From Micromonospora foliorum (GTDB lineage Bacteria > Actinomycetota > Actinomycetes > Mycobacteriales > Micromonosporaceae), in assembly GCF_022229015.1 (NCBI RefSeq), contig NZ_JAKKFF010000135.1, positions 1-64,000 on the forward strand: a DNA stretch of 64,000 nucleotides, written 5' to 3'. Numbering within the stretch: position 1 is the stretch's first letter; each line of letters opens with the position of its first letter. Made by a program: the position numbers and the translations under genes. The notes beneath the pieces were generated by a model that saw only the letters and a list, made by a program, of their open reading frames with translations, was not told the DNA's origin and did no database searches. This document shows positions 12,387-31,134 of the stretch, piece after piece.

Positions 12387-13895
12387 TCACCCCTGGCCGC
12401 CCCGCCAGGTCGGCACCGGCAGTGCGCGGCGGTCGGCCTTGCCGTTGCGCGTGACCGGCAGATCGTCCATCGCCACATACCGGGCTGGCACCAGGTGGGC
12501 CGGCAGCCGCGCCGCCAGCGCCCGCCGCAGCTCCGGTACGCGCAGCTCGGCGCCGGGCGCGAGGACCAGGTAGGCGACCAGGCGCTTGTCGCCGGGCCGA
12601 AGCTCCTGGGCGGTGACCACGGCCCGGTGGACGGTGGGCTGCTCGACCAGGGCGGCCTCCACCTCGGCCGGCTCGATTCGATAGCCGCGCACCTTCACCT
12701 GGTCGTCGATGCGGCCGAGGAACTCCAGCAGCCCGTCGCCGCGCCGCCGCACCAGGTCACCGGACCGGTAGGCGCGGGACTCCGGCCGCCCCGGCTCGGG
12801 GACGAACCGACGGTCGGTCTCGGTCGGGTCCTCCAGGTAGCCGAGCGAGACGCCGGCACCGGCGATCCACAGCTCGCCCGGATCGCCCTCGGGCACGGGC
12901 TCACCGCGCTCGTCCATGATCCACAGTCGGGCGCCCGGGATCGCCCGGCCGATCGGCAACGGGTGGCCCGCCTCCTCGACCGTTGACACGCGGTGGCAGC
13001 AGGCGAAGGTGGTGGTCTCGGTCGGGCCGTAGCCGTTCACCACGACCCGGCCCGGCACGGCCGCCAGCGCCCGCCGCACGTGGTCGGCCGAGAGCACGTC
13101 ACCGCCGGAGAGCAGCTGGGTCACCGGATCGAGCGCCCGCAGGTCGACGTCGACGACCTGGTGGAACAGCGCGGAGGTCAGCCACATCGTGTCGACCCGG
13201 TGGCGGGTCAGCAGCTCGCCGAGCCGGTCGCTGCCGAGCAGGTCGTCGGGGGCGACCACCAGCCGGGCGCCGTTGAGCAGGGCGCCCCAGATCTCGAACG
13301 TCGACGCGTCGAACGAGATCGGCGCGAACTGCAGCATCGTCCGGGCCGGGCCCAGCTCCACGTAGTCGGCGCCGGTCGCCAGGTTGACGATGCTGTGGTG
13401 CGAGACCACCACGGCCTTCGGCCGGCCGGTGGTGCCGGAGGTGAACATGACGTACGCCGGGTCGGCAGGTTGGCGCTCCGGAGCGGCGAACGGAGCCGTC
13501 GCCTCGTCGTGCCGTTCCTCGTCGACGAGGATGAGGTCGACGTCGATCCGCATCGGGGCGTCGGCGCTCGTCAGCACCAGCTTGACGCCGCACCGCTCCA
13601 CCATGTCCAGCAGCCGCGCCCGGGGATAGGCGGGATCGAGCGGCACGTAGGCCGCCCCGGCCTTCAGCACGGCGAGCAGGGCGACGACGGTCCGCGTCGA
13701 TCGGCCGAGCAGGACACCCACGAACCCGCCCGCGCAGCCGCGGTCGACGATGACGCGCGCCAGCGCCGTCGAACGGCGGTCCAGCTCGGCGTACGTCAAC
13801 CGCTCCTGGTCGTCCTCGACCGCGACCGCCCCGGGGGTCGCGCGGGCGACGCCGGCGAACACCCCGGGTACGGTTTCCGGCGAGGCCAGGGTCAC
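12387..13895 (-). CDS. Free-standing NRPS adenylation domain, valine-type code
   Basis: 502 residues containing one A domain and nothing else. Core motifs run in order: LKAGAAYVPLD (A2), FTSGTTGRPKA (A3), FDASTFEIWG (A4), NGYGPTETT (A5), YRSGDLVRR (A7), GRIDDQVKVRGYRIE (A8) and the A10 Lys in NGKADRRAL. Reading the Stachelhaus positions by eye gives D-A-F-W-L-G-G-T-F-K, one residue from the published valine code DAFWIGGTFK, so L-Val is the predicted substrate. It overlaps the adjacent carrier-protein gene by 4 bases and almost certainly loads that carrier in trans. It is the last gene of the leftward half of the biosynthetic cluster. Confidence 0.9.
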   Translation of the reverse strand: MTLASPETVPGVFAGVARATPGAVAVEDDQERLTYAELDRRSTALARVIVDRGCAGGFVGVLLGRSTRTVVALLAVLKAGAAYVPLDPAYPRARLLDMVERCGVKLVLTSADAPMRIDVDLILVDEERHDEATAPFAAPERQPADPAYVMFTSGTTGRPKAVVVSHHSIVNLATGADYVELGPARTMLQFAPISFDASTFEIWGALLNGARLVVAPDDLLGSDRLGELLTRHRVDTMWLTSALFHQVVDVDLRALDPVTQLLSGGDVLSADHVRRALAAVPGRVVVNGYGPTETTTFACCHRVSTVEEAGHPLPIGRAIPGARLWIMDERGEPVPEGDPGELWIAGAGVSLGYLEDPTETDRRFVPEPGRPESRAYRSGDLVRRRGDGLLEFLGRIDDQVKVRGYRIEPAEVEAALVEQPTVHRAVVTAQELRPGDKRLVAYLVLAPGAELRVPELRRALAARLPAHLVPARYVAMDDLPVTRNGKADRRALPVPTWRGGQG

Positions 13896-14128
13896 GCCGC
13901 TCCCCTCCGCACCGCGTCGGCGAGCGCCGCCACCGTCGGGTGGCGCAGCACGGCCCCCGGCTGCATCGGTATTCCCTCGGCGGCGGCCTGCCGGGCCACC
14001 GCGAGCGCCAGCAGCGAGTCACCGCCGAGGTCGAAGAAGTCGTCCTCCGGTGCGACGGGGACGCCCAGTTCGGCCTCCCAGATGACGGTGAGTCTCGGCA
14101 CCAGCTCGACGCTGTCGATGTGGGACAT
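13892..14128 (-). CDS. Free-standing peptidyl carrier protein
   Basis: 78 residues with a full carrier fold; the phosphopantetheine site is Ser38 in DLGGDSLLA. Two in-frame GTG codons lie just upstream, but the ATG at 14128 has GAGAGG eight bases before it and is preferred. Coupled by a 4-base overlap to the valine-type adenylation gene, so it is the likely acceptor of activated valine. Being free-standing it can present the aminoacyl thioester to tailoring enzymes such as the F420-type oxidoreductase or the radical SAM enzymes. Confidence 0.9.
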   Translation of the reverse strand: MSHIDSVELVPRLTVIWEAELGVPVAPEDDFFDLGGDSLLALAVARQAAAEGIPMQPGAVLRHPTVAALADAVRRGAA

Positions 14129-14140
14129 CACCACGTCCTC

Positions 14141-15412
14141 TCAGGTCACCGGCACGGGCCGCGACCGGGCCCAGTGCCGCTCGATCAGCGCGCAGACGAA
14201 CCCGGCGACGGCGACGACCACGCCGAGCGCGACCCAGCCGTAGAGCCCGCCGTTGAGGCACAGCGGGATGACGATGGCCGGCGCCACCGCGGCGGCGATG
14301 GACTGCCCCAGGCCCATGACGCCCTGATACTGCCCCTGCGCCTTGGACTGGGCGAGGGCGAAGGACAGCTCGAACGTGCCACCGGCCTGCCACACCTCGG
14401 CCAGCGAGTGGACGAGCACGGCGACGAGCAGCAGGGCGATGGCGACCCACGCGACCGTCCCGCCCGACAACGCCATCATGGTCCAGGCGATCAGGAAGAG
14501 CGGCCCGGACATCGTGATGAGACGCGCGGCCGACGCGGGACCGTCGATGGACCGCGTCGCCGGCACCTGCATCGCGGCGACGGCGATCGACGCGATGAAG
14601 AGCACCAGCGCCGCCATGGAACGCGGTGCGTCGGTCTCGAACACGATCCACACCGGCAGCGCCTGCACCAGCACCCAGTACTGCAGGCTGGCCACCGCCG
14701 CCGCGACCGTCAGCATCAGGTAGTGCCGGTCCCGCAGGGCGATCCACTTGCGTTCCTTCTCGACGGCGTCGTCGAGCTTGGCGACCCGGGTCGGCGGCAG
14801 GTGCGGCAGCCGGGACAGGATGGCGGCGGCGATCAGGAAGGTGGTCGCGTCGGTGACGATCAGGAACACGTACGCCGGGCGGGTGTCGATGGCCAGCGCG
14901 ACGGCCGCCGAGAGGGTGCCGATCGCGAGCCCGACGTTCGTCACGGCCCGGAGGTACGAGCGCAGCCGCGCCCCCTTGCCCTCCTCGGCGACCACTCCGA
15001 TCATCGCGCCCCGGGCGCTGCTCGTCCCGCCGCTGCCGATCGCGGCGACCGCGGCCACGGCGATCAGGCTCCACAGGTTGTCCACCAGCAGCAGGCAGAT
15101 GCTGCCCACCGCCTCCAACACCATGGCGGCGATCACGACCTCACGCGAGCCGCGCCGGTCGGCCAGGTCACCGACGAGCACGCCGGCGCCGACCCCGATC
15201 AGCGACCCGATGGTGAGCCCGAGCCCGACCGTGGCCGGGCTCAGGCCGGTGAACCTGATCAGGAAGATCGTCCCAGCGGACAGGAACATGCCCATGCCGA
15301 TGGTGTTCACGATGGTCGCCCGCGCCAGCACCTGCTGACGGCGGTCCTCCGGGCCGCGCAGAGTGGCGCGGATCCGGGTCAGCCGGCCTGCGTCAGGTCC
15401 GACGGTCTTCAA
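14141..15412 (-). CDS. MFS transporter, probable product exporter
   Basis: 423 residues with about twelve membrane helices and the MFS loop motif GDLADRRGSRE between helices 2 and 3. A TTG at 15412 is chosen as the start because GAGGAG lies seven bases upstream and the product then begins MKTVGPD; in-frame ATG/GTG codons further up overlap the nucleotidyltransferase gene. Nothing in the sequence gives a substrate. Its place between the carrier protein and the nucleotidyltransferase gene suggests export of, and self-protection against, the cluster product. Confidence 0.85.
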   Translation of the reverse strand: MKTVGPDAGRLTRIRATLRGPEDRRQQVLARATIVNTIGMGMFLSAGTIFLIRFTGLSPATVGLGLTIGSLIGVGAGVLVGDLADRRGSREVVIAAMVLEAVGSICLLLVDNLWSLIAVAAVAAIGSGGTSSARGAMIGVVAEEGKGARLRSYLRAVTNVGLAIGTLSAAVALAIDTRPAYVFLIVTDATTFLIAAAILSRLPHLPPTRVAKLDDAVEKERKWIALRDRHYLMLTVAAAVASLQYWVLVQALPVWIVFETDAPRSMAALVLFIASIAVAAMQVPATRSIDGPASAARLITMSGPLFLIAWTMMALSGGTVAWVAIALLLVAVLVHSLAEVWQAGGTFELSFALAQSKAQGQYQGVMGLGQSIAAAVAPAIVIPLCLNGGLYGWVALGVVVAVAGFVCALIERHWARSRPVPVT

Positions 15413-15453
15413 CTGGTTCTCCTCGTCCTTGTCCAACCTTGCGGCCCGCCCGG

Positions 15454-16290
15454 TCAGGCGGTGGCCAGGAACTCGCCCTCGAGCCGCACGAGGTGACCCT
15501 GAGCCCACCGCGCCACGCGCAGGGCGCAGTCTCCGTCGGATTCTCCCGGACGAGCCCCGTCCAGCACCATGGACCGGAACTCATCGGCGCCGATGCCACA
15601 CTCGGGCTTGGCCGCCAACCGGCGCATCGTCCATTTCTCGTCGTGGCAGAAGTCTCCGAACAGGGCGAGACAGGCGTCGGTCGCCCGGAATGCCGCGACC
15701 CGCGCGGAAATACGCGCCGAGGCCTCGTCGTCGTTGTCCAGCTGACCGGCGACGTCGATGAGGGAATTCTCCGCCCACACCTTTGCGGTACGGGCACGGG
15801 CGCGGCGGAACGACGACTTCTCCAGCAGTTCGCGCGCCTGCTGGAAGAATGCGTCGTTCTTCAGTGGAGTGGCGATGGACATCCGGTAGACGAAGGCGAG
15901 CATGCCCTCGCTCGTGCCGCAGAGCTCGACCTCGCCCGCCAGGTAGGGCTTCAGCACGGTGGCGAAGGTGGCGGTCGGCCACACCGTCAGGTCGACGCGC
16001 GCCTGCTCGTACTCGCCCATCCAGTTGTCCCAGCGTATGCCGCTCTTGTCCACCCCCGGCCAGGTCTCCATGGTCTCGTCCACCGGCAGCTCGAGGGTCT
16101 GGTCGGAGAAGGCGAAGAGGTCGTAGTCGCTGTAGACGTTGCCCCAGCCGATCGCGGTGGACCCGGTCCAGCAGACGGCTTCCGCCTCGGCCAGGCCCGG
16201 GAACCGCTTGAGGATGCCGTCGAAACTCATGTCCGGTGGCTGCCGGAATCGGGGCTGAGCCACGATGACGTCAATATTCGGATCGAACAT
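15454..16290 (-). CDS. Nucleotidyltransferase-fold protein of the biosynthetic cluster
   Basis: 278 residues. The N-terminal third has the Pol-beta-type nucleotidyltransferase signature: Gly43-Ser44 in WTGSTAIG followed by Asp55 and Asp57 in YSDYDLFAF. The rest is helical, as in DUF4111- or aminoglycoside-adenylyltransferase-like proteins, but I cannot place it in a named family. It could adenylylate the product for self-protection or modify a biosynthetic intermediate. Nucleotidyltransferase genes also accompany HPr-kinase-like and PqqD-like genes in some lasso-peptide clusters, and both of those occur here. GGAGG lies about 8 bases before the ATG. The divergent neighbour is the type II thioesterase, 59 bases away. 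Confidence 0.7.
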   Translation of the reverse strand: MFDPNIDVIVAQPRFRQPPDMSFDGILKRFPGLAEAEAVCWTGSTAIGWGNVYSDYDLFAFSDQTLELPVDETMETWPGVDKSGIRWDNWMGEYEQARVDLTVWPTATFATVLKPYLAGEVELCGTSEGMLAFVYRMSIATPLKNDAFFQQARELLEKSSFRRARARTAKVWAENSLIDVAGQLDNDDEASARISARVAAFRATDACLALFGDFCHDEKWTMRRLAAKPECGIGADEFRSMVLDGARPGESDGDCALRVARWAQGHLVRLEGEFLATA

Positions 16291-16335
16291 CAGAATTCCT
16301 CCCGGGTGACGGTGTACGAGTTGGCGGCGGCCGCA

Positions 16336-16341
16336 TAGTAT
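16336..16341 (+). promoter_or_regulatory. -10 element, probable leaderless promoter of the thioesterase gene
   Basis: TAGTAT lies eight bases before the ATG at 16350, and no ribosome binding site is present in the 59-bp divergent spacer. A leaderless transcript is the simplest reading. Confidence 0.45.
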
Positions 16342-16349
16342 CCATTGTC

Positions 16350-17084
16350 ATGAATAAGCTCGAACCGTCGCCGACAAAGGGGCAGTCGCTCGTTTCCTGG
16401 GGCGCGCCGGCGACAAGCGGCCTGGCCCTCGTGTGCATTCCGTGGGCCGGCGCCGGAGCGGCTCCGTTCCGGGTGTGGACCCCGGTGCTCGGCGACACGG
16501 CCACCGTCTACGGCCTGCGACTGGCGGGCCGCGAGAGCCGCCGGGCCGAGCCGCCGGCGAAGACCGCCGGCCAGGTGGTCGGCGAGGTCGTCGCCGAGTT
16601 GGCCGATCGCGGCGTGACGCGGGTCGCCCTCTTCGGTCAGTGCTTCGGGGCGGTGCTGGCGTTCGAGCTGGCGAAGGCGCTGACCCACGACGGCCACGGC
16701 ATCGAGGTCAGCCACCTGCTGGTCGCCTCGCAGCTGCCGCCCCCGCACTTCACCGAGGCGGACCCCGCGGCGGAGCAGGACCTCCTGCAGTACGTTCCGG
16801 CGCACTTCCGGGACGAGCCCGACTTCGTCCAACTGCTGCTGCCGATCATCGCCGCGGACATCGGCCTGGTGTCGCGCTACGTCCACCGGCCCGGAGCCGC
16901 CCTCACGACGCCGATCACCGTCGTCTACGGCGCGCGGGACGACCAGCTGAGCCGTGCCCGGCTCGACGCCTGGCGGCGGGAGACAACCGGCCCGACGACC
17001 TTCCACGAGGTCGCCGAGGGAGACCACCTCTTCGCGGGTGACGCGTGGCTGCGGCTCGCCGAGACCGTGCGCGCCGCGCTGTGA
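16350..17084 (+). CDS. Type II thioesterase with cysteine nucleophile
   Basis: 244 residues, standard for external (type II) thioesterases that clear misprimed carrier proteins. The fold markers are present: IPWAGAGAAPFR near residue 30, the nucleophile elbow near 96-100, the Asp in ARDDQ near 197, and the His in EGDHLFAG near 224. The elbow reads GQCFG, so Cys98 replaces the usual Ser. Cys-nucleophile thioesterases exist but are a minority and can transfer acyl groups rather than hydrolyse them. It is the only gene of the central block on the plus strand and ends one base from the convergent carrier-protein gene. Confidence 0.88.
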   Translation: MNKLEPSPTKGQSLVSWGAPATSGLALVCIPWAGAGAAPFRVWTPVLGDTATVYGLRLAGRESRRAEPPAKTAGQVVGEVVAELADRGVTRVALFGQCFGAVLAFELAKALTHDGHGIEVSHLLVASQLPPPHFTEADPAAEQDLLQYVPAHFRDEPDFVQLLLPIIAADIGLVSRYVHRPGAALTTPITVVYGARDDQLSRARLDAWRRETTGPTTFHEVAEGDHLFAGDAWLRLAETVRAAL

Positions 17085-17085
17085 C

Positions 17086-17346
17086 CTACTCATCGCCGAG
17101 GAACGCGGCGAGCTGGTCGACGGTCGGGTGCGAGAAGATGTCGACGATCCGCACCCCGGGCCAGCGCCCGCGGAGTGTGCGGACCACGCCGAGCATCACC
17201 TCCGAGGTCGCGCCGAGGTCGAAGAAGCCGGCGTCCGGCTCGACGGTCTCGACGCCGAGGGCGTCCGCCCAGACCGCCTGAAGGACCTCGACCGGGTCGC
17301 CGTCGAGGTCGGGGCCGGCCTCCGGAGCCCGGGCCAGGTCAGCCAT
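17086..17346 (-). CDS. Second free-standing carrier protein
   Basis: 86 residues from the ATG at 17346. The carrier motif is FFDLGATSEVML, with the phosphopantetheine Ser48 preceded by Ala-Thr rather than the common Gly-Asp or Gly-His. This altered motif separates it from the valine-associated carrier and hints at a different partner set. It overlaps the LLM oxidoreductase gene by 8 bases, so the oxidoreductase may act on a substrate tethered to this carrier. Whether it is a PCP or an ACP is not decidable by eye. Confidence 0.85.
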   Translation of the reverse strand: MADLARAPEAGPDLDGDPVEVLQAVWADALGVETVEPDAGFFDLGATSEVMLGVVRTLRGRWPGVRIVDIFSHPTVDQLAAFLGDE

Positions 17347-18313
17347 CCAATGCCTCCCGCAGAGTCGTGCCGACGGCCTGCAGGTGCGTGAGGTCGGTGG
17401 GGTCGAGCACGGCCACGATGAAGCCGTCCACCCCGGACTCGCGGTAGCTGCGCGCCTGACGCCGCACCTGGTCACGGGTGCCGCAGAGGGCGAACCCCCG
17501 GGCGGCACTCGGCGTCAGGTCGAGGAGCACCCCCAGCCGGTCCAGCGCCTCGTGCAGCTCCCACTCGGAATCGGCGATGATCACGTGACCCAACCAGGTC
17601 TTGGTGATCTCGCCGCTGTCGCGTCCCACGGCCGCGCACGCGCGTTCCAGCACGTCGATCTTGTGGCGCACCGTGGCCGGCCCGCCGAAGAAGTTGCAGG
17701 CGTCCCCGAGCCTGGCGATCAGCGGGATGAGCACCTTCTCGCCGCCACCGCCGATGAGGATGGGCGGCCCGTCCGGGTTGATCGGCCCGGGCATGTTGAG
17801 CGGCTCGTCGATGCGGTGGTACTTCCCGGCGAACCGCGGCGCGTACTCGGTGAACATCGCGCGGCAGATCTGGACCGCCTCGGCCAGCTGAGCCAGCCGC
17901 TCCCGTGCGGGCGGGAAGTCCAGGCCGTAGGCGCGGTACTCCTCCTCGTGCCAGCCGGCGCCGATGCCCAGGATCGCCCGGCCGCCACTGATGATGTCGA
18001 TGGTGGTGACCATCTTGGCCAGCACCGCCGGGTTCCGGAAGCCGCAGGCGGAGACGAGTACCCCGAGGCGGGCGACGGAGGTGACGGCCGCCAGGGCCGC
18101 CGTGGTGGTGTACGCCTCCAGGATGGGCTCGTCCCGGCTCCCCACCGAGGCGATCTGGTGGAGGTGGTCCATGGTCCAGAGGCTGTCGAAGCCGGTCTTC
18201 TCGGCCGCCCGGGCGGCGTCCGCGACCTGCTGGAAGAGCTTGTCGTCGGTGACCCCGGCGAACGAGTAGCCGCTGAACTGTAGGCCGACTCGGGTGATCG
18301 GTGTGCGGTTCAT
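17339..18313 (-). CDS. LLM-class flavin/F420-dependent oxidoreductase
   Basis: 324 residues with the luciferase-like (beta/alpha)8 fold. Motifs fit the F420-dependent class: TGFDSLWTMDHLHQ near residue 40, ISGGRAILGIGAGWHEEEY near 110-130, RLAQLAEAVQI, and the phosphate-contact segment near PPILIGGGGEKVL. F420 rather than FMN is inferred from this pattern. Within the cluster it is a candidate for oxidation or reduction of an imine, enamine or thioester-bound intermediate. It overlaps the carrier-protein gene downstream and starts 7 bases after the PqqD-like gene. Confidence 0.86.
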   Translation of the reverse strand: MNRTPITRVGLQFSGYSFAGVTDDKLFQQVADAARAAEKTGFDSLWTMDHLHQIASVGSRDEPILEAYTTTAALAAVTSVARLGVLVSACGFRNPAVLAKMVTTIDIISGGRAILGIGAGWHEEEYRAYGLDFPPARERLAQLAEAVQICRAMFTEYAPRFAGKYHRIDEPLNMPGPINPDGPPILIGGGGEKVLIPLIARLGDACNFFGGPATVRHKIDVLERACAAVGRDSGEITKTWLGHVIIADSEWELHEALDRLGVLLDLTPSAARGFALCGTRDQVRRQARSYRESGVDGFIVAVLDPTDLTHLQAVGTTLREALDG

Positions 18314-18320
18314 CCGGGAC

Positions 18321-18659
18321 CTAACGGCTGGTCACGGCGGCGACGTCGGCGGGCGTGGCGACCTCGACGAGGCCGATCTCGAGCAGCCGCTCGCAGAGCT
18401 CGTAGGTCGGCTGTCGGATCTGCTCGACCGGTGCGGCGGTTGCCTCGGCCACCCCGGCGAGCACCTGCCCGACGGTGTGCCGGCCGTCGATCAACAGCCA
18501 GGGCACCCGGGCGTCGCGGTCCAGCACGTAGCGGCCGGTCAGGGTCTCCAGCAGGATGCCGTCGGCGGTACGGTCGCTGAGCCCCTCGACCCCGGTGGCG
18601 AGCCGGGCCGTCACGTCCAGCCCGCGGATGAGAACCATGTCGTCGTTGATGGTGGTCAT
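18321..18659 (-). CDS. PqqD-like protein (RiPP recognition element fold)
   Basis: 112 residues resembling PqqD-family proteins: a winged-helix/beta segment (YVLDRDARVPWLLIDG) and a helical C-terminus (QPTYELCERLLEIGLVEV). PqqD-fold proteins bind leader peptides and deliver them to radical SAM or other enzymes. The ATG at 18659 overlaps the KS-ACP stop by 4 bases. No precursor peptide or lasso cyclase is apparent, so here it may chaperone a carrier-bound or otherwise atypical substrate. Its co-occurrence with an HPr-kinase-like gene and a nucleotidyltransferase gene resembles the tailoring set of some lasso-peptide clusters and the HPr-rel-A systems. Confidence 0.75.
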   Translation of the reverse strand: MTTINDDMVLIRGLDVTARLATGVEGLSDRTADGILLETLTGRYVLDRDARVPWLLIDGRHTVGQVLAGVAEATAAPVEQIRQPTYELCERLLEIGLVEVATPADVAAVTSR

Positions 18660-21007
18660 GAGCCTGTCTCCTTGTTGGCCGAGGCTTCCTCGACGAAAGC
18701 CGCTGTGGCGGCGACGGTGGGGGCGACGAACGGCAGGTCGACCGGCAGGTCCAGGCCGAGCCCCTCGCGCAGGCGGGCGGTGACCTCGACCGCGTAGATG
18801 GAGTCGCCGCCGAGGTCGTCCGAGAAGTGCGCGTCCGGCGGCAGGTGCTCGACGCCGAGGACGTCGCGCCACACCTGCTCGACATAGCTGGCGATGCTCA
18901 CGCCGTTCCGGCGCGCCGAGGCACCCGTCGCGCCGTCGACCGTCCCGACGGAGCGCGTCGGCCGGTCGAGCCAGAAACGGCGGCGGGTGAACGGGTAGGC
19001 GGGCAGCGAGACCCGCTGGCGCGGTTCGTCGGCGTAGTAGGCCGCCCAGTCGATTCGCGCGCCCCCCTGCCACGCCGCAGCCAGCACCTCGTCCAGGTCG
19101 AACGACGGCCCGATGACGACCTGGCCGGGGCCGGAACGGGTCTCCCGGCCCTCGGCGGTGCCGGTGCAGGCGTCCAGCGCCGCGGCCAACGACGACGGAT
19201 CGGCGCCCGCGGCGAGCCACTGCGCGACCGGCCGGGCCCACTCCTGCGCGTCCACCCGGGAGAAGGTCAGCCCGAGCCGCTGCAGAACCCGGCCCACGAC
19301 GGCCGCCACCAACGCGCCGGCCCGTGGCATCGGAATGTCCGCCAGCTCGGTCGACCCGGTGAGTTCGAGCAACCCGGACCGCACGGTCGGCTCGGACGCC
19401 TGGAGCCGCTTGCCCAACTCGGCCAGCTCGGCGGCATCCCCGGCGATGGCCAGTGACCAGCGGGCGGTGGACCGGCCGGCCTCGCCGGGCGCGCGCAGTT
19501 TCGTGATCGCGTCGGCGCTGCTGCCGACCACCGCCGACCACCGCCGCACGAACCGGCCGCGCCCGACCGCGAGCGTGTAGGCCACGTCGGCGAGTTCGGC
19601 CGGCGCCGTCGCCGCCAGCCGCTCGGCGAGCCGCTCCCGCATCCGGTGCAGCTCGTCATCGGTACGGGCGGACAGCGCCAGCACGGCCCGGGGCCGCATG
19701 GTCGTCGGGACCGGCTCGACGAGCGCCCGCTCCAGCACGACGTGCGCGTTGGAGCCGCCCAGCCCGAACGAGCTGACGCCGGCGACGCGCGGACTCTCCA
19801 CCGGCCAGGGGCGGGTCGCCGCGGTCATCACGAAGGGCGTTGAGTCCATGTCGAGTTCGGGGTTCGGCGCGGCGAAGTGCGCCGTCCCCGGCAGCGTGCC
19901 GCTCTCCACGGCCAGGGTCGCCTTGATCAGGCCCGCTACGCCGGACGCCGCGTCGGCGTGGCCGATGTTCGCCTTGGCCGCGCCCAGGGTGACCGAGGCG
20001 GTCGATCGGCCGTCGTGGGCGAAGACGCGCCGGAGGGCCTCGAACTCGACCAGGTCGCCGATGGCGGTGCCGGTGCCGTGCGTCTCGACGTAGCCGACCT
20101 GGCCGGCGGTGAGCGTGGCCCGGGCCAGCGCGGCGCGGATCACCGCCTCCTGCCCGTCCACGTTGGGCGCGGCGAAGCCCGCGCGGGCGCCGCCGTCGTT
20201 GTTGACGGCCCAGCCCCGGATCACCGCCCGTCGGTTGTCGCCGTCGGCCCGGGCGTCGTCGTCGCGCCGGAGCACCACGATGCCCGCGCCCGAGCTGGGC
20301 ACCGTGCCCGACGCACCGACGTCGAACGGCCGGCAGTGCCCGTCGGCCGAGAGGATGCCGCCCTCGTGGAAGGTGTAGCCGTTCACGTCCGGCGGCAGCA
20401 GGCTCACGCCGCCGGCCAGCGCGATGTCGCAGTCGCCGGCGGCCAGCGTCGAGCAGGCCAGCGCGACCGCGGTGAGCGACGTGGCGCAGCCGGTCTGCAC
20501 GGTGATCACCGGCCCGGTGAAGCCGAGCTTGAAGGCGAGCCGCGGCGCCAGGAAGTCCTTCTCGTTGGCCAGTGTCACTTGCACGTCGCCGAGGCGCCCG
20601 GCGCCGGCCTCGGTGGGCGCCACGAAGTCGCGGTAGTACAGGTTTTCCCCGCACCCGACGAAGACGCCGACCACGGCGTCCCGCTCGCCCGCGTAGCCGG
20701 CGTCGTCCAGCGCCTCGGCGGCGACCTCCAGCAGGATCCGCTGCTGCGGGTCCAGGGTGACGGCCTCGGCCGGCGGCACCCGGAAATGGTCCGCGTCGAA
20801 GAGGTCGACGCCGTCGACCTTCCCGACCGCGCCCACGAACTCGCCGTCGTCGACGCCGCCGGGCCGTGGCCGCTCGCCGGTCCGGCGCACCGATTCGACC
20901 CCGTCGACAAGGTTCGTCCAGAACTGCGCCACATCGCCCGCTCCGGCGAATCGACCGGCCATCCCGATCACCGCGACGGGGCGGCCGGGAGGTGGCTTGC
21001 TTCTCAT
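18656..21007 (-). CDS. PKS protein: ketosynthase, vestigial acyltransferase region, acyl carrier domain
   Basis: 783 residues. The ketosynthase (about 10-430) has all three catalytic residues: Cys174 in QTGCATSL (usual form DTACSSSL), His near 310 in VETHGTGT and His near 347 in KANIGHAD. A KS-AT linker follows, then about 150 residues where an acyltransferase of ~300 should lie. No GHSxGE or GQGxQ motif is visible, yet the post-AT linker is retained (LPAYPFTRRRFW). The C-terminus is a carrier domain with Ser in DDLGGDSIYA. It therefore depends on a trans-acting acyltransferase or accepts non-malonyl substrates. AAGGAGG lies 8 bases before the ATG. Probably acts once, condensing onto an amino-acyl or peptidyl chain. 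Confidence 0.88.
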   Translation of the reverse strand: MRSKPPPGRPVAVIGMAGRFAGAGDVAQFWTNLVDGVESVRRTGERPRPGGVDDGEFVGAVGKVDGVDLFDADHFRVPPAEAVTLDPQQRILLEVAAEALDDAGYAGERDAVVGVFVGCGENLYYRDFVAPTEAGAGRLGDVQVTLANEKDFLAPRLAFKLGFTGPVITVQTGCATSLTAVALACSTLAAGDCDIALAGGVSLLPPDVNGYTFHEGGILSADGHCRPFDVGASGTVPSSGAGIVVLRRDDDARADGDNRRAVIRGWAVNNDGGARAGFAAPNVDGQEAVIRAALARATLTAGQVGYVETHGTGTAIGDLVEFEALRRVFAHDGRSTASVTLGAAKANIGHADAASGVAGLIKATLAVESGTLPGTAHFAAPNPELDMDSTPFVMTAATRPWPVESPRVAGVSSFGLGGSNAHVVLERALVEPVPTTMRPRAVLALSARTDDELHRMRERLAERLAATAPAELADVAYTLAVGRGRFVRRWSAVVGSSADAITKLRAPGEAGRSTARWSLAIAGDAAELAELGKRLQASEPTVRSGLLELTGSTELADIPMPRAGALVAAVVGRVLQRLGLTFSRVDAQEWARPVAQWLAAGADPSSLAAALDACTGTAEGRETRSGPGQVVIGPSFDLDEVLAAAWQGGARIDWAAYYADEPRQRVSLPAYPFTRRRFWLDRPTRSVGTVDGATGASARRNGVSIASYVEQVWRDVLGVEHLPPDAHFSDDLGGDSIYAVEVTARLREGLGLDLPVDLPFVAPTVAATAAFVEEASANKETGS

Positions 21008-24310: not shown

Positions 24311-25769
24311 ACCGGTCCTGTTCGAAGAACATCCCGTACTTCATGCCCACGGCGGCCAGCTGCTCCTTGACCGACGGCGAGTAGAAGGCGACGCTCAGCT
24401 CGTCGCCGAAGAAGTAGCCCAGCTCGGTCGGGCGCACGGCGGTGTCGGTCACCTCGAACAGCCCGTGTTGCTCGGCGTGCCGGATGGTGTCGCCGAAGAC
24501 CTCGAGCGGGTCGATGCCGAACTTGGCCGCGAACCCGGCCCGGGAGACGCCCGCGCTGGTGTGCACGCCCAGCACGAAGGTCTTGCGCATCAGCTCGTCG
24601 CGGCCCAGCGTCTGACCCATCCAGGTCGGGTGCAGACCCTGGCGGACCTGGGCGCCCCACTCGCCCAACGACTTGGTGTTCCAGTAGAAGGTCGAGTTGA
24701 GGAAGCCGTACGAGCCGCAGCCGGCGCTCAGCAGCTGCGTCTGGTCCACGCCCCTCTTGAGTTCGGTCTGCTGCTGCATCTTCTCGCGCGCCTTGGCGTA
24801 CTTGTGGCTCTGCACCCGGACGTAGTCCGCGTCGCCCATCATCAGGCCGTGCGCGAGCTGCATCCGCAGGCCGTCCTCGTAGGACGGGTAGAGGTCCTGT
24901 TCGAGCTTCGAGATGCGCTTCATCGGGTGCTGGCGCAGCCGATAGACGCTCACCGACTCGAGCTGCCAGGCGATGATCTGTTTCATCGTCTCGACCCAGG
25001 AGGCGAGCGACTGCCCGGGAAGCGCGTAGATCAGGTCGACGTTGATGTTGTCGAAACCCGCGCTGCGCATGTTCTCGATGCTGCGCAGCGTCATGTCCGC
25101 GCCGTGCCGACGGGCCATGATCTTGAGTACGCGGTCGTCCAGGCTCTCCACGCCCAGGTTCACCCGGTTCACGCCGTTGTCCCGCAGGATCGTCAGCTTG
25201 TCGAGGTTCGCGTGGATCGTCTCGGGCGCGCACTCGAAGGTGACTTCCAGGCTGTCCTTGGTCTTGAGGGAGTGCAGATAGCTCATGATCCGCTTGATCT
25301 GCCGCTCCTCCAGGATCGAGGGTGTGCCGCCGCCGAAGTGAACCGTACCGATCGTCGCGTCCGGGTTGTAGCGCTCCAGCTTGGCGTCGATCTCCCGGAT
25401 CAGGAGTTCGATGTAGTCGTCCTTGTCGACCGGCGCGTTCCCGTTGTCCACGACCTTGGCGAAGTAGCAGTAGGAGCAGATCCCACTGCAGTACGGGATG
25501 TGCAGGTACATGTTCAGCACGTCGGCCGGGGGTTCCAACTCCGACCGGGCGAACATCGCGTCGTGCGGCAGCTCCTCCAGCACCCGCACCGGTGGATAGC
25601 TGTAGATGAAGCAGTAGTCGCCGCGCTTGTCGAAACCGGCCTCGGAGAGTCGATCCCAGCCGATGCCCTGGTAGGCCGCCTCGATCGCGTCGCCCACCGC
25701 CTCGTCGAGCACGATCCGGGCGTTGTCCTCCTGAACACGCCGACGCAGGTCCTTCGCCGCAATGTACAT
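24303..25769 (-). CDS. HemN/HemW-like radical SAM enzyme
   Basis: 488 residues. The [4Fe-4S] cluster ligands are Cys94, Cys98 and Cys101 (PYCSGICSYCYF); the fourth HemN Cys is replaced by Phe, as in HemW and in HemN-like biosynthetic enzymes. The SAM-binding GGGTPS, the ribose motif (TFECAPETI), NRVNLGVES and NVDLIYALPGQS follow, then a HemN-type C-terminal domain. HemN-like enzymes in natural-product clusters build cyclopropanes or methylate unreactive carbons using a SAM-derived methylene radical. A long N-terminal extension of about 85 residues is unusual. It starts 10 bases after the other radical SAM gene, so the two are co-translated and may act in sequence. Confidence 0.88.
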   Translation of the reverse strand: MYIAAKDLRRRVQEDNARIVLDEAVGDAIEAAYQGIGWDRLSEAGFDKRGDYCFIYSYPPVRVLEELPHDAMFARSELEPPADVLNMYLHIPYCSGICSYCYFAKVVDNGNAPVDKDDYIELLIREIDAKLERYNPDATIGTVHFGGGTPSILEERQIKRIMSYLHSLKTKDSLEVTFECAPETIHANLDKLTILRDNGVNRVNLGVESLDDRVLKIMARRHGADMTLRSIENMRSAGFDNINVDLIYALPGQSLASWVETMKQIIAWQLESVSVYRLRQHPMKRISKLEQDLYPSYEDGLRMQLAHGLMMGDADYVRVQSHKYAKAREKMQQQTELKRGVDQTQLLSAGCGSYGFLNSTFYWNTKSLGEWGAQVRQGLHPTWMGQTLGRDELMRKTFVLGVHTSAGVSRAGFAAKFGIDPLEVFGDTIRHAEQHGLFEVTDTAVRPTELGYFFGDELSVAFYSPSVKEQLAAVGMKYGMFFEQDRYA

Positions 25770-25779: not shown

Positions 25780-27393
25780 TCAGTCCGTGCAGATCGACAA
25801 CGAGTAGTTGCGCTGACGCTTCAAAGCGATTTCCTTCCATTCCGACTTGACCTCGTAGCCGCCGATCAGCGCCTTGTACGTGTCAGTCGGGGCCGGCACC
25901 CAGAACAGCGGGTAGGCGTCCTTGAGAAACTTGACGGCGTCCGGCACAGCGTCGTACCGGCTGATGGTGTCGAGCAGGAAGAACGGGTCGGTGCCGGCGA
26001 AGCCGATGCCGAGGTCGCTACAGGCCCGCGAGAGCCGCTCGACCCGCTCCACCACCAGGTCGGCGTCCGGCAGCGAGCCGTCCGAGTTCTGGTACTGCCA
26101 CCACCCGGAGTCGAAGGTGGTCAGCTGGATGCCGAACTCCTCGGGAGCGCGCGCGATCGGTGTGTCCGGAGGCAGGTAGAACGGGTTGATCCGGACCGAG
26201 TGGATCGTGTCGACGTTCGCCGCCAGGAAGTCGATGGTCCGCTCGATGTCGTCGGCGATCTCGCCGGGGAAACCGACCAGGAAGTTGACGTGGTTCCAGA
26301 CGTCCTCGGCCGCGGCGTACCGCAGCGTGGTCGACATCGTCGGTACGTCGTAGTCCTTGCGCATCAGGTCGAGCAGCCGCTGCGAGCCGGACTCGACGCC
26401 GTACCGCGCGAGACGCCCGCCGTTCTGGCGGATGCGCCCGAAATCCGCGGCCTCGAGCCGATCCGCACGGATGTAGGTGAACCAGTTGGTGGCGCCACCC
26501 CCGCCGCGGGCCTCGAGCTCGTCCAGGAAACGCAACAGGTACTTGCGGGACGGGTTGAGCTCGTTCGTCATGAAGTTGAGCTGGTCGACCTCGGCCTTGG
26601 CCAGGTCGGCGAACGAGTCGATGGCCACCTTGGGCGGGGTCAGGACCGCCCGGCTGCCGGTCGCGACCCGGCAGAACGCGCACCGGAAGTTGCACTGCTT
26701 GTCCCAGACGTACAGGTGGGCACGCCGCGCCCGCGTCGGGTTCTTGTACGTCGCGATGCCGAAGTCCTCGTACTGCTCCCACGGCACCCAGTCGTAGACC
26801 GGCTGTGGGGGCAGCGACTTCGCCACCTTCCGCGGGCCGGCGACGATCGCGCCACCCGGGGTGGGGTTGGTGGTGTAGCTGTTGGGGATCGTCTCCGGTG
26901 TGGCCCGTTCGACGAACGCGGTCGTCGACTCCCAGCCGTCGCCCACGGTCACCGTGACCGAGCCGAACGGGGCGAGCGCGTGGATCACCTCGGAGGCCGA
27001 CCGCTCCGTCCAGAACTGGCCACCGAACATGACCGGCATGTCATGGGCCAGGGCCAGCCGGGCCAGCAGCAACGCCGACGCGCTCTGCTCGAAACCCATC
27101 ACCGAGATGCCGAGGGACTGCCCGCCGCTGGATCCGCCGATGATCTGCCAGAGCTGCTCGCCGTAGGCGCGGACCGGCTCGGCGAGCTCCGGCGCGAGCA
27201 CGTCGGCGGTCGACAGCGCGCCGTCGTACAGCAGCACGTCCTCGCCTTTGCGGCGACGGTCGGCGAGCTGCATCTCGAGGTCGAAGACCTCGGCGTCATG
27301 GCCGTTCAGGCGCAGGCTCGACGCCAGCAGTGAAATCCCCACCGGCGGGTACGGAATGATTCTCTTGCCAGACGGAGCAAAGACGAGTTTCAA
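25780..27393 (-). CDS. Class B-like (BchE-type) radical SAM enzyme, probable cobalamin-dependent
   Basis: 537 residues from a TTG start at 27393. An N-terminal Rossmann-like domain (about 1-190, PYPPVGISLLASSLRLNGHDAE split by the family's typical PPLG-like turn) has the layout of B12-binding domains, but I see no DxHxxG motif, so cobalamin would bind base-off without the His ligand. The radical SAM core has Cys234, Cys238 and Cys241 (CNFRCAFC), then a SAM-binding strand and the FLVGFPGE motif. Related enzymes methylate, ring-contract or cyclise unactivated carbons. It is the first gene of the long leftward operon; its promoter must lie in the 0.8-kb spacer at 27394-28200. Reaction unknown. 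Confidence 0.85.
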   Translation of the reverse strand: MKLVFAPSGKRIIPYPPVGISLLASSLRLNGHDAEVFDLEMQLADRRRKGEDVLLYDGALSTADVLAPELAEPVRAYGEQLWQIIGGSSGGQSLGISVMGFEQSASALLLARLALAHDMPVMFGGQFWTERSASEVIHALAPFGSVTVTVGDGWESTTAFVERATPETIPNSYTTNPTPGGAIVAGPRKVAKSLPPQPVYDWVPWEQYEDFGIATYKNPTRARRAHLYVWDKQCNFRCAFCRVATGSRAVLTPPKVAIDSFADLAKAEVDQLNFMTNELNPSRKYLLRFLDELEARGGGGATNWFTYIRADRLEAADFGRIRQNGGRLARYGVESGSQRLLDLMRKDYDVPTMSTTLRYAAAEDVWNHVNFLVGFPGEIADDIERTIDFLAANVDTIHSVRINPFYLPPDTPIARAPEEFGIQLTTFDSGWWQYQNSDGSLPDADLVVERVERLSRACSDLGIGFAGTDPFFLLDTISRYDAVPDAVKFLKDAYPLFWVPAPTDTYKALIGGYEVKSEWKEIALKRQRNYSLSICTD

Positions 27394-28200
27394 TTCTTTT
27401 CCCCCGACGATGGGCCTGTGAACACATAACGACTTTGGCTTTCCGCGTTTGTCGCGGATCGCGATTCGCTTCGCCTTGAGACGTCCACGCTGAGCCTGCC
27501 GGCAACCCTAAGCGGATCGCGAGAGGCCCGCCAAGGTGTTTCCAAATGATGAGAGCGCGCCACCCTTGGTGTCGACAGTCAATTTCGCGCAGAATCGTTC
27601 GCCAGCATTACAAGGCAGGATTTTTTGGGCATCGTCGCCCGACTCGATCGTGAGCCCTATCGGACAATTCCGGGTGAAACAGTGCTGCTGCGCACGGCAC
27701 CACGCAGGGGTTTCATCCAGCAGTCACGAGAGCGCACCCACATCGACGAGATCAATGAGCGGCGCGCACAGCGGTGGTCGGTCGCATGACCCAGTGAAGT
27801 CCTTTCCCCCGTAACAGGACGCGCCCCTCGAAGGAAGCACCCCCCATGTCGGCCATCCCCTTCGATGACCCAGACCTACCAGCCAGTCTTGTCCTTCAGG
27901 CTCGGGACGGATCCACCTCGTTGTTCACCGGCCGGACTGACTCCGGTCACATTGATATCACTCTCCGAGCTGACTGTCACCCCCTCGCGGTGCGACAACT
28001 TTCGATCTTCATGAGCGATCCAGGGCTGAGCTGGGAAACCACCGACAGTGATGTCGATCGACGTCGCCGGGCGGTGGTGGCGACCGACCTCCGTCCTGTG
28101 CGGCAGCCAATAATTGCTCCGGCTGTATTCATTTCGACTGATACCATCGAATGCGGGCTCCGCGCCGCACACCTGCCGGCCCGCATTCATGGAGGGAAAC
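27394..28200. other. 0.8-kb divergent spacer of lower GC with direct repeats
   Basis: This spacer separates the two divergent arms of the biosynthetic cluster and is clearly less GC-rich than its surroundings. It contains an 11-bp direct repeat, GCGGATCGCGA, at 27454-27464 and 27512-27522, which may be a regulator site. It also contains an ATG at 27846 with AAGGAAG ten bases upstream that opens an MbtH-like reading frame (listed separately). No regulator gene lies in or beside it. Promoters for both arms should be here. Confidence 0.6.
27846..27935 (+). pseudogene. MbtH-like N-terminal fragment
   Basis: From the ATG at 27846 (AAGGAAG upstream) the frame reads MSAIPFDDPDLPASLVLQ then ARDGSTSLF. 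This aligns with the start of MbtH proteins (NPFDDPDxxxLVLVNDEGQxSLW): PFDDPD, LVL, Gly, Ser-Leu and an aromatic at the same spacing. Beyond about residue 30 the MbtH core with its conserved Trp residues is not present, and the frame runs without a stop into the NRPS gene. Most likely a decayed or recombined MbtH gene; a very divergent functional version cannot be excluded. Both adenylation domains in the cluster belong to classes that often need MbtH. Confidence 0.4.
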
Positions 28201-31134
28201 ATGAGCGACGCCGCTGTTCGGAACGTTGTCGACCTCGTTCATCTTCAGGTGCGGCAGAATCCGGACCGGCCGGCCGTTCGGGGGCACACCGAATCGATGA
28301 GCTATGGGCAGCTGTGGCACCGCTCGGGTGTGCTCGCCGCGCAATTGCGCGACCACGGAGTGCGACCCGGCGACGTGGTAGGCCTCTGCCCGCGGCGCTC
28401 CCCCGATCTGGTCGTCGGCGTCCTCGGCATCCTGCGGGCCGGCGGCGCCTACCTGCCGCTCGACGCCGCTTATCCGCGACAGCGGCTGGAATACATGCTG
28501 CGGCAGGCCGATGCCACGGTGCTGGTCGGACACCGCGACAGCGCCGAGGCGCTGGCGGGCTCGCGCGTGCTCATCCCCCTCGACGAGACCGACGACGGCC
28601 GCACGGTCGACGTCACTCCCGCGGTCACGGCGGGCGACATCGGGTACGTCATGTTCACCTCCGGATCGACCGGGGTGCCCAAGGGGGTCATGCAGACGCA
28701 CGGCGCCCTGGCCAATCTCGTCGAGTGGCAGCTCCGCGACTCGGTGGTCGGCGCGGGTGAGGTCACCGCACAGTTCGCCCCGATATCGTTCGATGTCTCC
28801 TTTCAGGAGATCTTCGCGACCCTGGCGGCCGGCGGGGTGCTGCTCTGTCTCACCGACGACGAACGCCGTGACCCGGTGCTGCTGTGGAGGGTGTTGGCCC
28901 GGGAGCGGGTCGCCCGGCTCTACCTGCCGTTCGTCATGCTGCAGACGCTGGCCCTGTTCGCCGAGGAGCTGGCTGGCGGCGCACCTCCGCTGCGTGAGGT
29001 GATCACCGCGGGCGAGCAGCTGCGCTGCGACGACCGGATCAAGCGGCTCTTCGCCCAGCTCCCCGGATGCCGGCTCGTCAACCACTATGGCCCCACCGAG
29101 ACACACGTCTGCACCCGGTATTCGCTGCCCGCCGATCCCGAGGGTTGGCCGCTGCTACCGCCGATCGGCACCGCGATCGACCGGGTTCGGCTGCACGTGC
29201 TGGACGCCGGGGGCGATCCGGTGCCGGCAGGTGAGCCGGGTGAGCTGCACGTCGCCGGCATCGCGGTGGCAGGCGGATACCTCGGGCAGCCGGAGCTGAC
29301 CGCGAAGAGGTTCCGGCCCGAGCCCGGTGGGGCCGGCATCATGTACGCGACCGGCGATGTCGTGCAGTGGAACGACGGCCAGTTGCACTACCTGGGCCGC
29401 AACGACGATCAGGTGAAGGTGAACGGCATCCGGGTGGAGCCGGCCGAGATCGAACGCGCCCTGCTGGCCTTCCCGGAGGTGCGGGAGGCGGCCGTGGTGG
29501 CGCGCGCCGGCGCGGGCACCCGCCTCGTCGGCTTCGTCACCGGCCGGCTCGACACCGGGCTGATCCGCGAGCGGATGGCCGAAACACTGCCTGGTCATCT
29601 GGTGCCGCACCGGATCGTTCGACTGGCGGAGCTGCCCACCACGCCGAGTGGGAAGCTGGACCGCGCCGCGCTGGTCGACCTCGCCTCACCCTCGGTCGGG
29701 CAGCGGGCGGACGGCCTCGCGGCGATCTGGCAGGCGGAGCTCGAACTGGCCGACGAGCAGGTCGAGGATCTACGGGCGGCCGGTGTGGACTCCCTCGCCG
29801 CGGCGCGCGTGTCGGCGCGCATCGCCCGGGAGCTGGGTGTGCTCGTGGCGACCGACCGGCTGTTGGCCGCCACGTCGCTGGAGCATCTGGCCGAGATCGT
29901 GGCGGAGAGCCCTCCGGTGCCCCGCCGCGCGGCTGTCGAGCCAGCCGGGCCACAGCCGGTGAGTGTGATGCAGCGGCAGATCTTCGTCGACGAGATGCTC
30001 GCGGACAGCGGGCCGTCGCACTGGGTGCTGGCCGAACTCGACATCACCGGAGCGTTCGACCCGGCGGCGGCCGAGGCCGCGGTCCGTGCGCTCACCCGCC
30101 GGCACGCGGCCCTGCACACCCGCTACGACTTCGTCGGGCGGACCATCACCCAGGAGTACGTGCCCTCGGCACTGCCCGACGTGACCCATGCCGGGTCGGT
30201 CGACCTCGCGGCGCTGCGCGGGCGGCGCCTGGCCGAGCGCTACGAGTTCGGTGCGGTCGCCACACCGGTGGTGGACCTCGTCCGGCTCGGCGACCAGCAC
30301 CACCGCATGCTGTTCCGGCTGCACCACGCCAGCTGCGACGGCTGGTCGCTCGGGTTGCTGTTCGAGGATTTCGCCGCCCTCTACCGCGGCGATGAGCCGC
30401 CGCACACGATCCAGCCCTGGCAGTTGCCCGCAGCCGAGAGTGATCTCTCCGACTGGGTGGAGCACCTGAAGCCCTCGGCTGCCCGGCCGCCGATGTCCTG
30501 GGGTCGGCAGCGCGCTCCGCAGCCGACGCTGCGCCGGGTTCCGGTCGTGCTGGACGCGGCCGAGGTCAACGCGGTCCGGAAACGGGCCACGGACGCCGGC
30601 GCGACACCGTTCGCCGTGCTGCTGGCCGCGTGGGCGTCCCTGTTCGCCGAGGACGGCGCCGAGGTGTGCGTGGGGGTGCCGATCTCCACCCGGACGACCG
30701 CCGAGGAAGCCAGCTGCGTCGGCCTGTTCCTCAACACCGTCCTGTTGCCGTTGGCGACCGGCGCGGAGAGCCTGACGGCTCTGACCGACCTCACGCAGCA
30801 GGCCGTCGGTCGGGCCCTGCGGCATCGGACCGCGCCCCTGCCCGATGTTCTCCGGCGCCTGCGGGTCGACCGAAGCGGCAGGCACCACCCGGTGGCCCAG
30901 ATGATGTTCGCCCTGCAACCTCCCGGCCCGCGCGAGTGGCAGTTGGCCGAGGGCACGCGAGCAGAGCTGATCCTGGACGTCGGCATCCCGGCGCCGACCC
31001 GATTCGACGTGGTCCTCAACCTGGACGACCGGGGGAACCAGATCGTCGGATGGTTGGACCACGACGCGGGCGCGGTGGACGCCGCGCAGGTGACCGACCT
31101 GATCGCCCGTTGGCGCCTGACCATCAGGGCCTGA
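28201..31134 (+). CDS. NRPS, A-PCP-C, proline-type adenylation code
   Basis: 977 residues in the order adenylation (about 1-505), carrier (525-600, Ser in AGVDSLAAA) and condensation (620-977). A-domain motifs: LRAGGAYLPLD, FTSGSTGVPKG, FDVSFQEIF, NHYGPTET, and A10 Lys in PSGKLDRA. The code read by eye is D-V-Q-Y-I-A-H-V-C-K, one residue from the proline code DVQYIAHVVK, so L-Pro or a substituted proline is predicted. The C domain has an intact HHASCDG near residue 708. A C domain at the very C-terminus must receive its acceptor in trans, plausibly Val on a free carrier. GGAGGG lies before the ATG. No thioesterase domain. Confidence 0.9.
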   Translation: MSDAAVRNVVDLVHLQVRQNPDRPAVRGHTESMSYGQLWHRSGVLAAQLRDHGVRPGDVVGLCPRRSPDLVVGVLGILRAGGAYLPLDAAYPRQRLEYMLRQADATVLVGHRDSAEALAGSRVLIPLDETDDGRTVDVTPAVTAGDIGYVMFTSGSTGVPKGVMQTHGALANLVEWQLRDSVVGAGEVTAQFAPISFDVSFQEIFATLAAGGVLLCLTDDERRDPVLLWRVLARERVARLYLPFVMLQTLALFAEELAGGAPPLREVITAGEQLRCDDRIKRLFAQLPGCRLVNHYGPTETHVCTRYSLPADPEGWPLLPPIGTAIDRVRLHVLDAGGDPVPAGEPGELHVAGIAVAGGYLGQPELTAKRFRPEPGGAGIMYATGDVVQWNDGQLHYLGRNDDQVKVNGIRVEPAEIERALLAFPEVREAAVVARAGAGTRLVGFVTGRLDTGLIRERMAETLPGHLVPHRIVRLAELPTTPSGKLDRAALVDLASPSVGQRADGLAAIWQAELELADEQVEDLRAAGVDSLAAARVSARIARELGVLVATDRLLAATSLEHLAEIVAESPPVPRRAAVEPAGPQPVSVMQRQIFVDEMLADSGPSHWVLAELDITGAFDPAAAEAAVRALTRRHAALHTRYDFVGRTITQEYVPSALPDVTHAGSVDLAALRGRRLAERYEFGAVATPVVDLVRLGDQHHRMLFRLHHASCDGWSLGLLFEDFAALYRGDEPPHTIQPWQLPAAESDLSDWVEHLKPSAARPPMSWGRQRAPQPTLRRVPVVLDAAEVNAVRKRATDAGATPFAVLLAAWASLFAEDGAEVCVGVPISTRTTAEEASCVGLFLNTVLLPLATGAESLTALTDLTQQAVGRALRHRTAPLPDVLRRLRVDRSGRHHPVAQMMFALQPPGPREWQLAEGTRAELILDVGIPAPTRFDVVLNLDDRGNQIVGWLDHDAGAVDAAQVTDLIARWRLTIRA

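Follow-up and report, generated by a model that had tools for sequence, protein, structure and literature searches.

Positions 12387–31134 of a 64,000-nucleotide stretch of Micromonospora foliorum DNA (the window, meaning the whole stretch that was analysed) hold 16 genes that combine non-ribosomal peptide synthetase (NRPS) and polyketide synthase (PKS) parts with two radical S-adenosylmethionine (SAM) enzymes. The locus raises the question of whether these genes encode one pathway and what such a pathway would make. We found that the 16 genes are almost certainly one cluster, and that relatives of five of them occur together, with no detected assembly line, on a Rhizobium plasmid. We give an even chance to a two-layer reading of this orphan cluster, in which the five-gene core would build an amino acid and a dissociated assembly line would use it.

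The 16 genes as one block

The query for relatives was the radical SAM protein resembling B12-type enzymes in its N-terminal region (the B12-type protein), in a pattern-based scan that reaches close relatives only and was run on genome_contigs (described as covering 84,980 species). This gave 12 pattern matches and two confirmed relatives, in Microbispora oryzae (L013) and in a metagenome-assembled genome (MAG) of the Streptosporangiaceae (L014), around which stretches of 48 kb and 32 kb, respectively, were compared. Both carry the full set of 16 genes in conserved order, with one exception: the NRPS gene with adenylation (A), peptidyl carrier protein (PCP) and condensation (C) domains has the opposite orientation in the MAG. 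The ends of the shared block coincide with the limits originally drawn, 12387 and 31134. Cluster proteins are 75.0–92.8% identical to their Microbispora counterparts and 85.0–95.1% to those of the MAG, whereas PolA, the single yardstick gene used, is 60.5% and 62.2% identical. Of 24 flanking window open reading frames (ORFs) tested, one had a match above 60 bits, an ATP-binding cassette (ABC) ATPase at 33% identity located 11 kb from the MAG cluster; the MAG contig stops 0.8 kb past the NRPS gene, leaving the flank on that side barely compared. Given that the cluster proteins are closer than PolA and that the neighbours differ, we consider the block a single horizontally transferred biosynthetic unit. 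The initial annotation had claimed that one pathway is encoded here, and this is borne out by 16/16 genes travelling together in three genomes while the window’s neighbours do not stand beside the other two copies.

The genes are as follows, with identities given as Microbispora/MAG (KS, ketosynthase; AT, acyltransferase; ACP, acyl carrier protein; MFS, major facilitator superfamily; LLM, luciferase-like monooxygenase; HAD, haloacid dehalogenase).

12387–13895, minus strand: free NRPS A domain, Val-type (AMP-binding, 3e-85; TIGR01733, 424 bits; 81/88%)
13892–14134, minus strand: free carrier protein PCP1 (PP-binding, 4.7e-14; 84/85%; GGDS serine in 3/3 copies)
14141–15508, minus strand: MFS exporter (MFS_1, 1.8e-27; 79/86%)
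15454–16290, minus strand: nucleotidyltransferase-like protein with a GSTAIGWGNVYSDYDLF motif (NTP_transf_2, 14.8 bits against a cut-off of 21; 88/93%)
16350–17084, plus strand: free alpha/beta-hydrolase thioesterase, GQCFG (Thioesterase, 3e-25; 76/85%)
17086–17346, minus strand: free carrier protein ACP2/PCP2, 86 amino acids (PP-binding, 1.3e-9; 76/85%; GATS serine in 3/3 copies)
17339–18313, minus strand: F420-type LLM oxidoreductase, TIGR03560 family (263 bits against a cut-off of 231; 90/92%)
18321–18659, minus strand: PqqD-like protein, 112 amino acids (PF05402, 26.6 bits against a cut-off of 23.4; 75/92%)
18656–21007, minus strand: KS with degenerate AT region and carrier (GGDS) (ketoacyl-synt, 4.7e-60; PP-binding, 8.5e-13; 84/86%)
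21045–21983, minus strand: P-loop protein, distantly HPr-kinase-like, core gene (TIGR04355, E 1.4e-4; 38% to Rhizobium)
21976–22965, minus strand: M20 amidohydrolase, ArgE/DapE-like, core gene (Peptidase_M20, 7.8e-13; 33% to Rhizobium)
22962–23729, minus strand: GNAT-type acetyltransferase with C-terminal extension, core gene (Acetyltransf_1, 19.6 bits against a cut-off of 20.7; 29% to Rhizobium)
23726–24310, minus strand: HAD phosphatase-type hydrolase (Hydrolase, 1.3e-18; 85/90%)
24303–25769, minus strand: HemN-type radical SAM protein, core gene, CxxxCxxC at residues 94–101 (Radical_SAM, 6.4e-29; HemN_C, 4.5e-10; 52% to Rhizobium)
25780–27393, minus strand: radical SAM protein with B12-type-looking N-terminal region, core gene (Radical_SAM, 2.7e-11; 91/91%; 40% to Rhizobium)
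28201–31134, plus strand: A-PCP-C NRPS, Pro-type A (AMP-binding, 1.4e-74; Condensation, 2.2e-30; PP-binding, 1.6e-8)

Codon position 3 is more variable than positions 1 or 2 in 32/32 comparisons (16 genes in two other genomes), and we therefore take all 16 to be real genes under constraint. Most of the domain names given initially were confirmed by Pfam or NCBIfam, that of the PqqD-like protein included, while the HPr-kinase-like and nucleotidyltransferase calls are weak and fall below cut-offs. Overlaps of 4 or 8 bases occur at 7/12 adjacent same-strand junctions (a count that omits the junction interrupted by the thioesterase gene).

The cluster is rare in the genomes searched. A single-query search with the B12-type protein matched 24 of 61 genomes (36 of them congeners) at E 0.001, its own genome included, and the best match besides its own copy was 28% identical over part of the protein. 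With a four-row profile of this protein at E 1e-60, 2/297 genomes of the family that contains Microbispora were found, both of them the known relatives; at E 1e-40 the profile found 1/396 genomes in the phylum and 1/397 in the order, each time the window’s own copy (the three genome sets are samples and partly overlap). Proteobacterial chromosomes were covered by the pattern scan of genome_contigs only. A scan of viral_contigs with the profile gave 47 pattern matches and no confirmed relatives. Among 72,556 plasmid records, 23 match the B12-type protein and one spans at least 80% of it.

A five-gene core on a Rhizobium plasmid

This one record is pCB3171_1 of Rhizobium sp. CB3171, of which a 41-kb stretch (L015) was compared. 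Within about 7 kb (L015 15404–22470) it carries relatives of the M20 protein (33% identity), the GNAT (29%), the B12-type protein (40%), the HemN-type protein (52%) and the HPr-kinase-like protein (38%), and the two radical SAM genes are adjacent here as in the window. Conserved in the alignments are the radical SAM cysteines, the HxD motif and acidic residues of M20, and the P-loop with the NDR that follows it; the Rhizobium GNAT relative clears the Acetyltransf_1 cut-off (24.0 bits vs 20.7). The low identities suggest an old split. The remaining cluster proteins, including the A domain, PCP1, ACP2, KS and NRPS, had no tblastn match in the 41-kb stretch at E 1e-3.

As the core occurs there with no detected assembly line, the five proteins would, judging from this one locus, form a carrier-protein-independent pathway, and they look like an independent route to an unusual amino acid via radical chemistry. 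The separable core also makes radical synthesis of a building block likelier than radical modification of a finished product. The original guess had been a product that is then modified by radical chemistry; such late action becomes less likely in view of the Rhizobium core.

Near the core (L015 10175–16947) we also observed a DDE transposase, an ABC exporter, an NTP_transf_5 nucleotidyltransferase and a second GNAT. Directly after the kinase-like gene lies a gene for a 566-amino-acid protein (L015 22480–24180), which has no second copy in the plasmid records. We considered it as an ATP-grasp ligase and dropped this candidate, since nothing significant was found for it in Pfam, NCBIfam or PDB.

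The two radical SAM enzymes

In a PDB sequence search the HemN-type protein matched HemN (1olt) and NocN (9p2u). Mapped on NocN, it retains Y34, R153, D196, S225 and R230 (5/6 compared residues), along with the three cluster cysteines. In NocN the first four contact the second SAM, R230 stacks on adenine and substrate in a contact not seen in HemN, and Tyr276 is the catalytic residue (PMC12871812). With five of six SAM- and substrate-site residues kept, transfer of one carbon to an sp2 carbon, giving a methyl group or a cyclopropane, is plausible. The residue pattern fits a two-SAM enzyme and is compatible alike with methylation, cyclopropanation and HemN-like decarboxylation. The protein resembles the HemN-type class C radical SAM methylases NosN/NocN and C10P in its HemN family membership by sequence, its CxxxCxxC motif and the five NocN residues it keeps of the six compared. 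According to PMC6050322, C10P needs a methyltransferase partner (C10Q) to close the cyclopropane; unlike that system, our cluster has no C10Q-like match, and domain scans found no methyltransferase among the 16 genes.

The B12-type protein has a clear radical SAM core, and a cobalamin domain is likely, as predicted from its sequence layout. Its best NCBIfam family is PhpK (E 4.5e-20), where its 71.5 bits fall short of the 600-bit cut-off. The presence of N-acetyltransferase and deacylase genes adds to the likeness with the phosphinothricin pathway. In contrast to that pathway, no match to phosphoenolpyruvate mutase was found in the cluster genes or in 20 flanking ORFs scanned. A phosphonate reading was rejected, since its defining genes had no match in this set.

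Other core and accessory proteins

For the HPr-kinase-like protein, the TIGR04355 match spans 58 residues at 21.1 bits and TIGR04352 scores 13.5 bits, each against a cut-off of 200; its Rhizobium relative matches TIGR04355 at E 9.3e-6, also far below the cut-off. Pfam Hpr_kinase_C had no match anywhere in the window’s genome, and PDB sequence searches returned no HPr kinase among the matches. When the P-loop region, with its following Asp (SND) and an upstream His, was compared with HPr-kinase-related proteins, the match was again weak and below cut-off. An hhalign comparison with 10 ORFs from 20 loci gave a probability of 95.6 over 64 columns, though these reference ORFs had been picked by P-loop pattern and are themselves below the family cut-off, so that the comparison leans towards the P-loop.

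In the M20 protein H60, D62, D93, E118, E119 and D142, which we take to be positions of the metal-ligand type, are invariant between the window and Rhizobium. Together with the GNAT this suggests N-acyl protection and deprotection, and the kinase-like protein suggests activation of a hydroxyl group. The arrangement resembles N-acetyl-protected amino-acid routes of the arginine type (ArgA, ArgB and ArgE) in having an acetyltransferase, a kinase-like protein and an M20 deacylase in one gene row. It differs in that, instead of ArgB, the kinase-like protein is one related to the P-loop proteins of the HPr-kinase type, and in that two radical SAM enzymes stand where the arginine pathway has a reductase and an aminotransferase. 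A PDB sequence search with the nucleotidyltransferase-like protein yielded nothing at E values up to 1.

The dissociated assembly line

Specificity residues of the A domains were read by hand, using PheA positions and reference codes. The free A domain reads DAFWLGGTFK, close to Val codes, and that of the A-PCP-C protein reads DVQYIAHVCK, close to Pro codes (the Microbispora copy has Gln for His). The C domain has HHASCDG in 3/3 copies, and the carrier serine of the same protein is kept in all three, as GVDS in two copies and GVNS in Microbispora. In the KS the Cys-His-His motifs TGCATS, HGTGT and NIGH are likewise present in 3/3 copies. The KS gene had no Pfam AT match and no G[HF]SxG in any of its three copies, from which it follows that malonate would come from an AT acting in trans; trans-AT systems do without the domain in cis. 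The predicted inputs are Val, a residue of the Pro type and no more than one malonate. This agrees with the initial annotation, which had named a Val-type and a Pro-type A domain and allowed at most one ketide extension, as fits a single KS lacking the AT motif.

The free thioesterase has Cys at the nucleophile position (GQCFG) in 3/3 actinobacterial copies. In SulM, a Cys thioesterase whose nucleophile is preceded by Gln forms the beta-lactam ring of sulfazecin (PMC11298585). The window’s enzyme shares the Cys nucleophile with SulTE and ObiF and the preceding Gln with SulTE (same source). It differs in being free-standing and in having Phe after the Cys where SulTE has Asn, and the cluster shows no sign of a beta-lactam or beta-lactone. 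A type-II editing role would be equally possible as a SulM-like ring closure.

Proposed pathway and alternative explanations

The gene content, inheritance as a block, the separable core and the conserved motifs are observations; from them we infer the reactions that follow, their order and the product. The core (B12-type and HemN-type radical SAM proteins, GNAT, M20 and HPr-kinase-like protein) would yield a small molecule, a non-standard amino acid in free form. In it, the GNAT would protect the amine, the kinase-like protein might activate a hydroxyl group, perhaps through phosphorylated intermediates, the HemN-type enzyme would place a SAM-derived carbon on an sp2 carbon (as a methyl group or cyclopropane), the B12-type enzyme would methylate or otherwise modify an sp3 carbon, and M20 would take off the N-acyl group. 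The assembly line, comprising the free Val-type A domain with its carrier, the Pro-type A-PCP-C protein and the KS-carrier protein fed with malonate by a trans-acting AT, would join the building block, Val, the Pro-type residue and at most one malonate. Redox adjustment would fall to the F420-type LLM enzyme, release or cyclization to the Cys-type thioesterase and export to the MFS pump. The whole cluster probably makes an undescribed small peptide-polyketide.

Several observations weigh against this proposal. The core without an assembly line was found at one Rhizobium locus only; there, the HAD, LLM and PqqD-like proteins have no match in the 41-kb stretch (tblastn, E 1e-3), and the adjoining 566-amino-acid protein resembles nothing significantly in the databases named above. 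The HPr-kinase likeness is weak, being limited to about 60 residues and failing curated cut-offs, and the B12-type protein has no Pfam B12-binding match. The HemN-type protein differs from NocN in having His at the position of Y96, as in HemN itself, and the catalytic Tyr276 of NocN falls outside the aligned stretch. AlphaFold models were too poor for use (pLDDT 32 for the B12-type protein and 34 for the HPr-kinase-like protein). Finally, the cluster genes include no A domain for a third residue, so that the core product would have to be accepted in place of Val or Pro, as a similar unit, or else come in some other way; it may itself be the Pro-type or Val-type residue. A broader version of the proposal, which we hold possible but doubtful, sees the core as a new, phylum-crossing pathway in which tandem HemN-type and B12-type radical SAM enzymes would act on an N-acetylated, phosphate-activated amino acid, giving a cyclopropane- or methyl-branched unit that is fed to an NRPS/PKS in actinobacteria and used by another enzyme in Rhizobium.

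Two other readings keep the 16 genes as one cluster and assign the core differently. The radical SAM enzymes might act late, on a carrier-bound or released Pro/Val-ketide, with the PqqD-like protein helping to present the substrate. PqqD-like proteins bind peptides in pathways to ribosomally synthesized and post-translationally modified peptides (RiPPs), and the radical SAM genes belong to the same closely packed row as those for the KS and the PqqD-like protein. Yet both radical SAM enzymes occur with GNAT, M20 and the kinase-like protein in Rhizobium, where no carrier, A domain, KS or PqqD match was found in 41 kb, and we judge late action unlikely. Alternatively, the GNAT/M20 and kinase-like/HAD pairs might serve self-protection, with the product acetylated or phosphorylated while in the cell and unmasked on or after export in the manner of a prodrug, which would leave only the radical SAM genes as biosynthetic. 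Pathways of the phosphinothricin type use acetyl protection, and here an acetyltransferase, an M20 deacylase, a HAD protein and a kinase-like protein are clustered and an exporter is present. The retention of GNAT, M20 and the kinase-like protein with both radical SAM enzymes in Rhizobium, although the exporter differs (MFS vs ABC), fits biosynthesis better than resistance alone, and self-protection seems improbable.

The remaining two readings concern the nature of the locus itself. HPr kinase, PqqD and nucleotidyltransferase genes accompany some lasso peptide clusters, and the NTP_transf_5 gene and ABC exporter at the Rhizobium locus could be taken in the same direction, so the locus might be a lasso-peptide-like RiPP cluster fused to NRPS genes. 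The 16 genes gave no match to the leader peptidase B2 or to the asparagine-synthetase-type cyclase C (precursor peptides were not searched for), and with these defining genes lacking a match we rejected this reading as very unlikely. That two unrelated loci are adjacent by chance could draw on the NRPS orientation, which differs in one genome (the MAG), but we give it next to no credence. The initial annotation had itself pointed to separate loci in relatives as the finding that would speak against one pathway; what we found were all 16 genes together in 2/2 actinobacterial relatives, apart from the window’s neighbours.

Layout and surroundings of the cluster

On the minus strand the order of transcription is B12-type radical SAM, HemN-type radical SAM, HAD, GNAT, M20, HPr-kinase-like, KS-carrier, PqqD-like, LLM and carrier protein, followed, past the plus-strand thioesterase gene, by the nucleotidyltransferase-like protein, MFS exporter, carrier protein and A domain. 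The A-PCP-C gene on the plus strand is divergent from the B12-type gene. As called, the MFS gene starts at 15508 and overlaps the nucleotidyltransferase-like gene by 55 bases. The MAG match begins at residue 27 and the Microbispora match at residue 3, the latter crossing an early stop codon; the called start is too far upstream, and on these alignments we place the true start downstream of 15508.

The following region separates the divergent genes.

27394–28200: intergenic region between the B12-type radical SAM and NRPS genes, divergent

This region is likely to contain the promoters and possibly forms a regulatory region shared with the MAG; 214 bases of it align there at 72% DNA identity, but indels interrupt the alignment and no reading frame is kept throughout. 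We do not count as a gene the small ORF at 27846 that lies before the NRPS gene, because its DNA, though partly conserved in the MAG, shows the same indels and lack of a steady frame.

Directly adjoining the cluster at 10449–12247 are genes for a DUF6069 protein (10449–11183) and a sigma factor with a SnoaL-like domain (11189–12247). Neither had a match in the fetched stretches of Microbispora and the MAG, and for this reason both are probably outside the cluster. Both flanks (3906–10350 and 32147–43464) contain enolase-superfamily (MR_MLE) enzymes, ABC transporter parts and GntR/FCD regulators, with the look of sugar-acid catabolism; these catabolic-type genes may mark insertion of the cluster into a catabolic region.

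Relation to known systems and significance

The nearest known layout to the predicted assembly line is the dissociated NRPS-PKS of the andrimid/butuanimide type. The andrimid pathway has a free A domain in AdmK, a KS joined to a carrier in AdmM, and more than one KS subunit. The present cluster differs in having one KS and no transglutaminase-like match, and in its additional Pro-type A-PCP-C, two radical SAM, LLM, GNAT, M20 and kinase-like genes. As described in PMC13151354, a Val-succinimide unit is made by the AdmKMOPS proteins, among them an NRPS part that adds Val. No open-access paper among those listed by full-text searches presents such a gene set in its title or the opening of its abstract (MIBiG and most subscription papers were outside this scope). 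The cluster may be a new variant of hybrid NRPS/PKS clusters, and its separable radical-chemistry core may be new as well.

By acting on small molecules, radical SAM enzymes give rise to strained rings and branched amino acids, which are difficult to obtain by chemical synthesis. The separable five-gene core, found with and without an assembly line, is compact enough to be tested in the search for a new building block. It also offers a search handle for clusters in Rhizobium-like settings that tools keyed to NRPS and PKS genes would miss.

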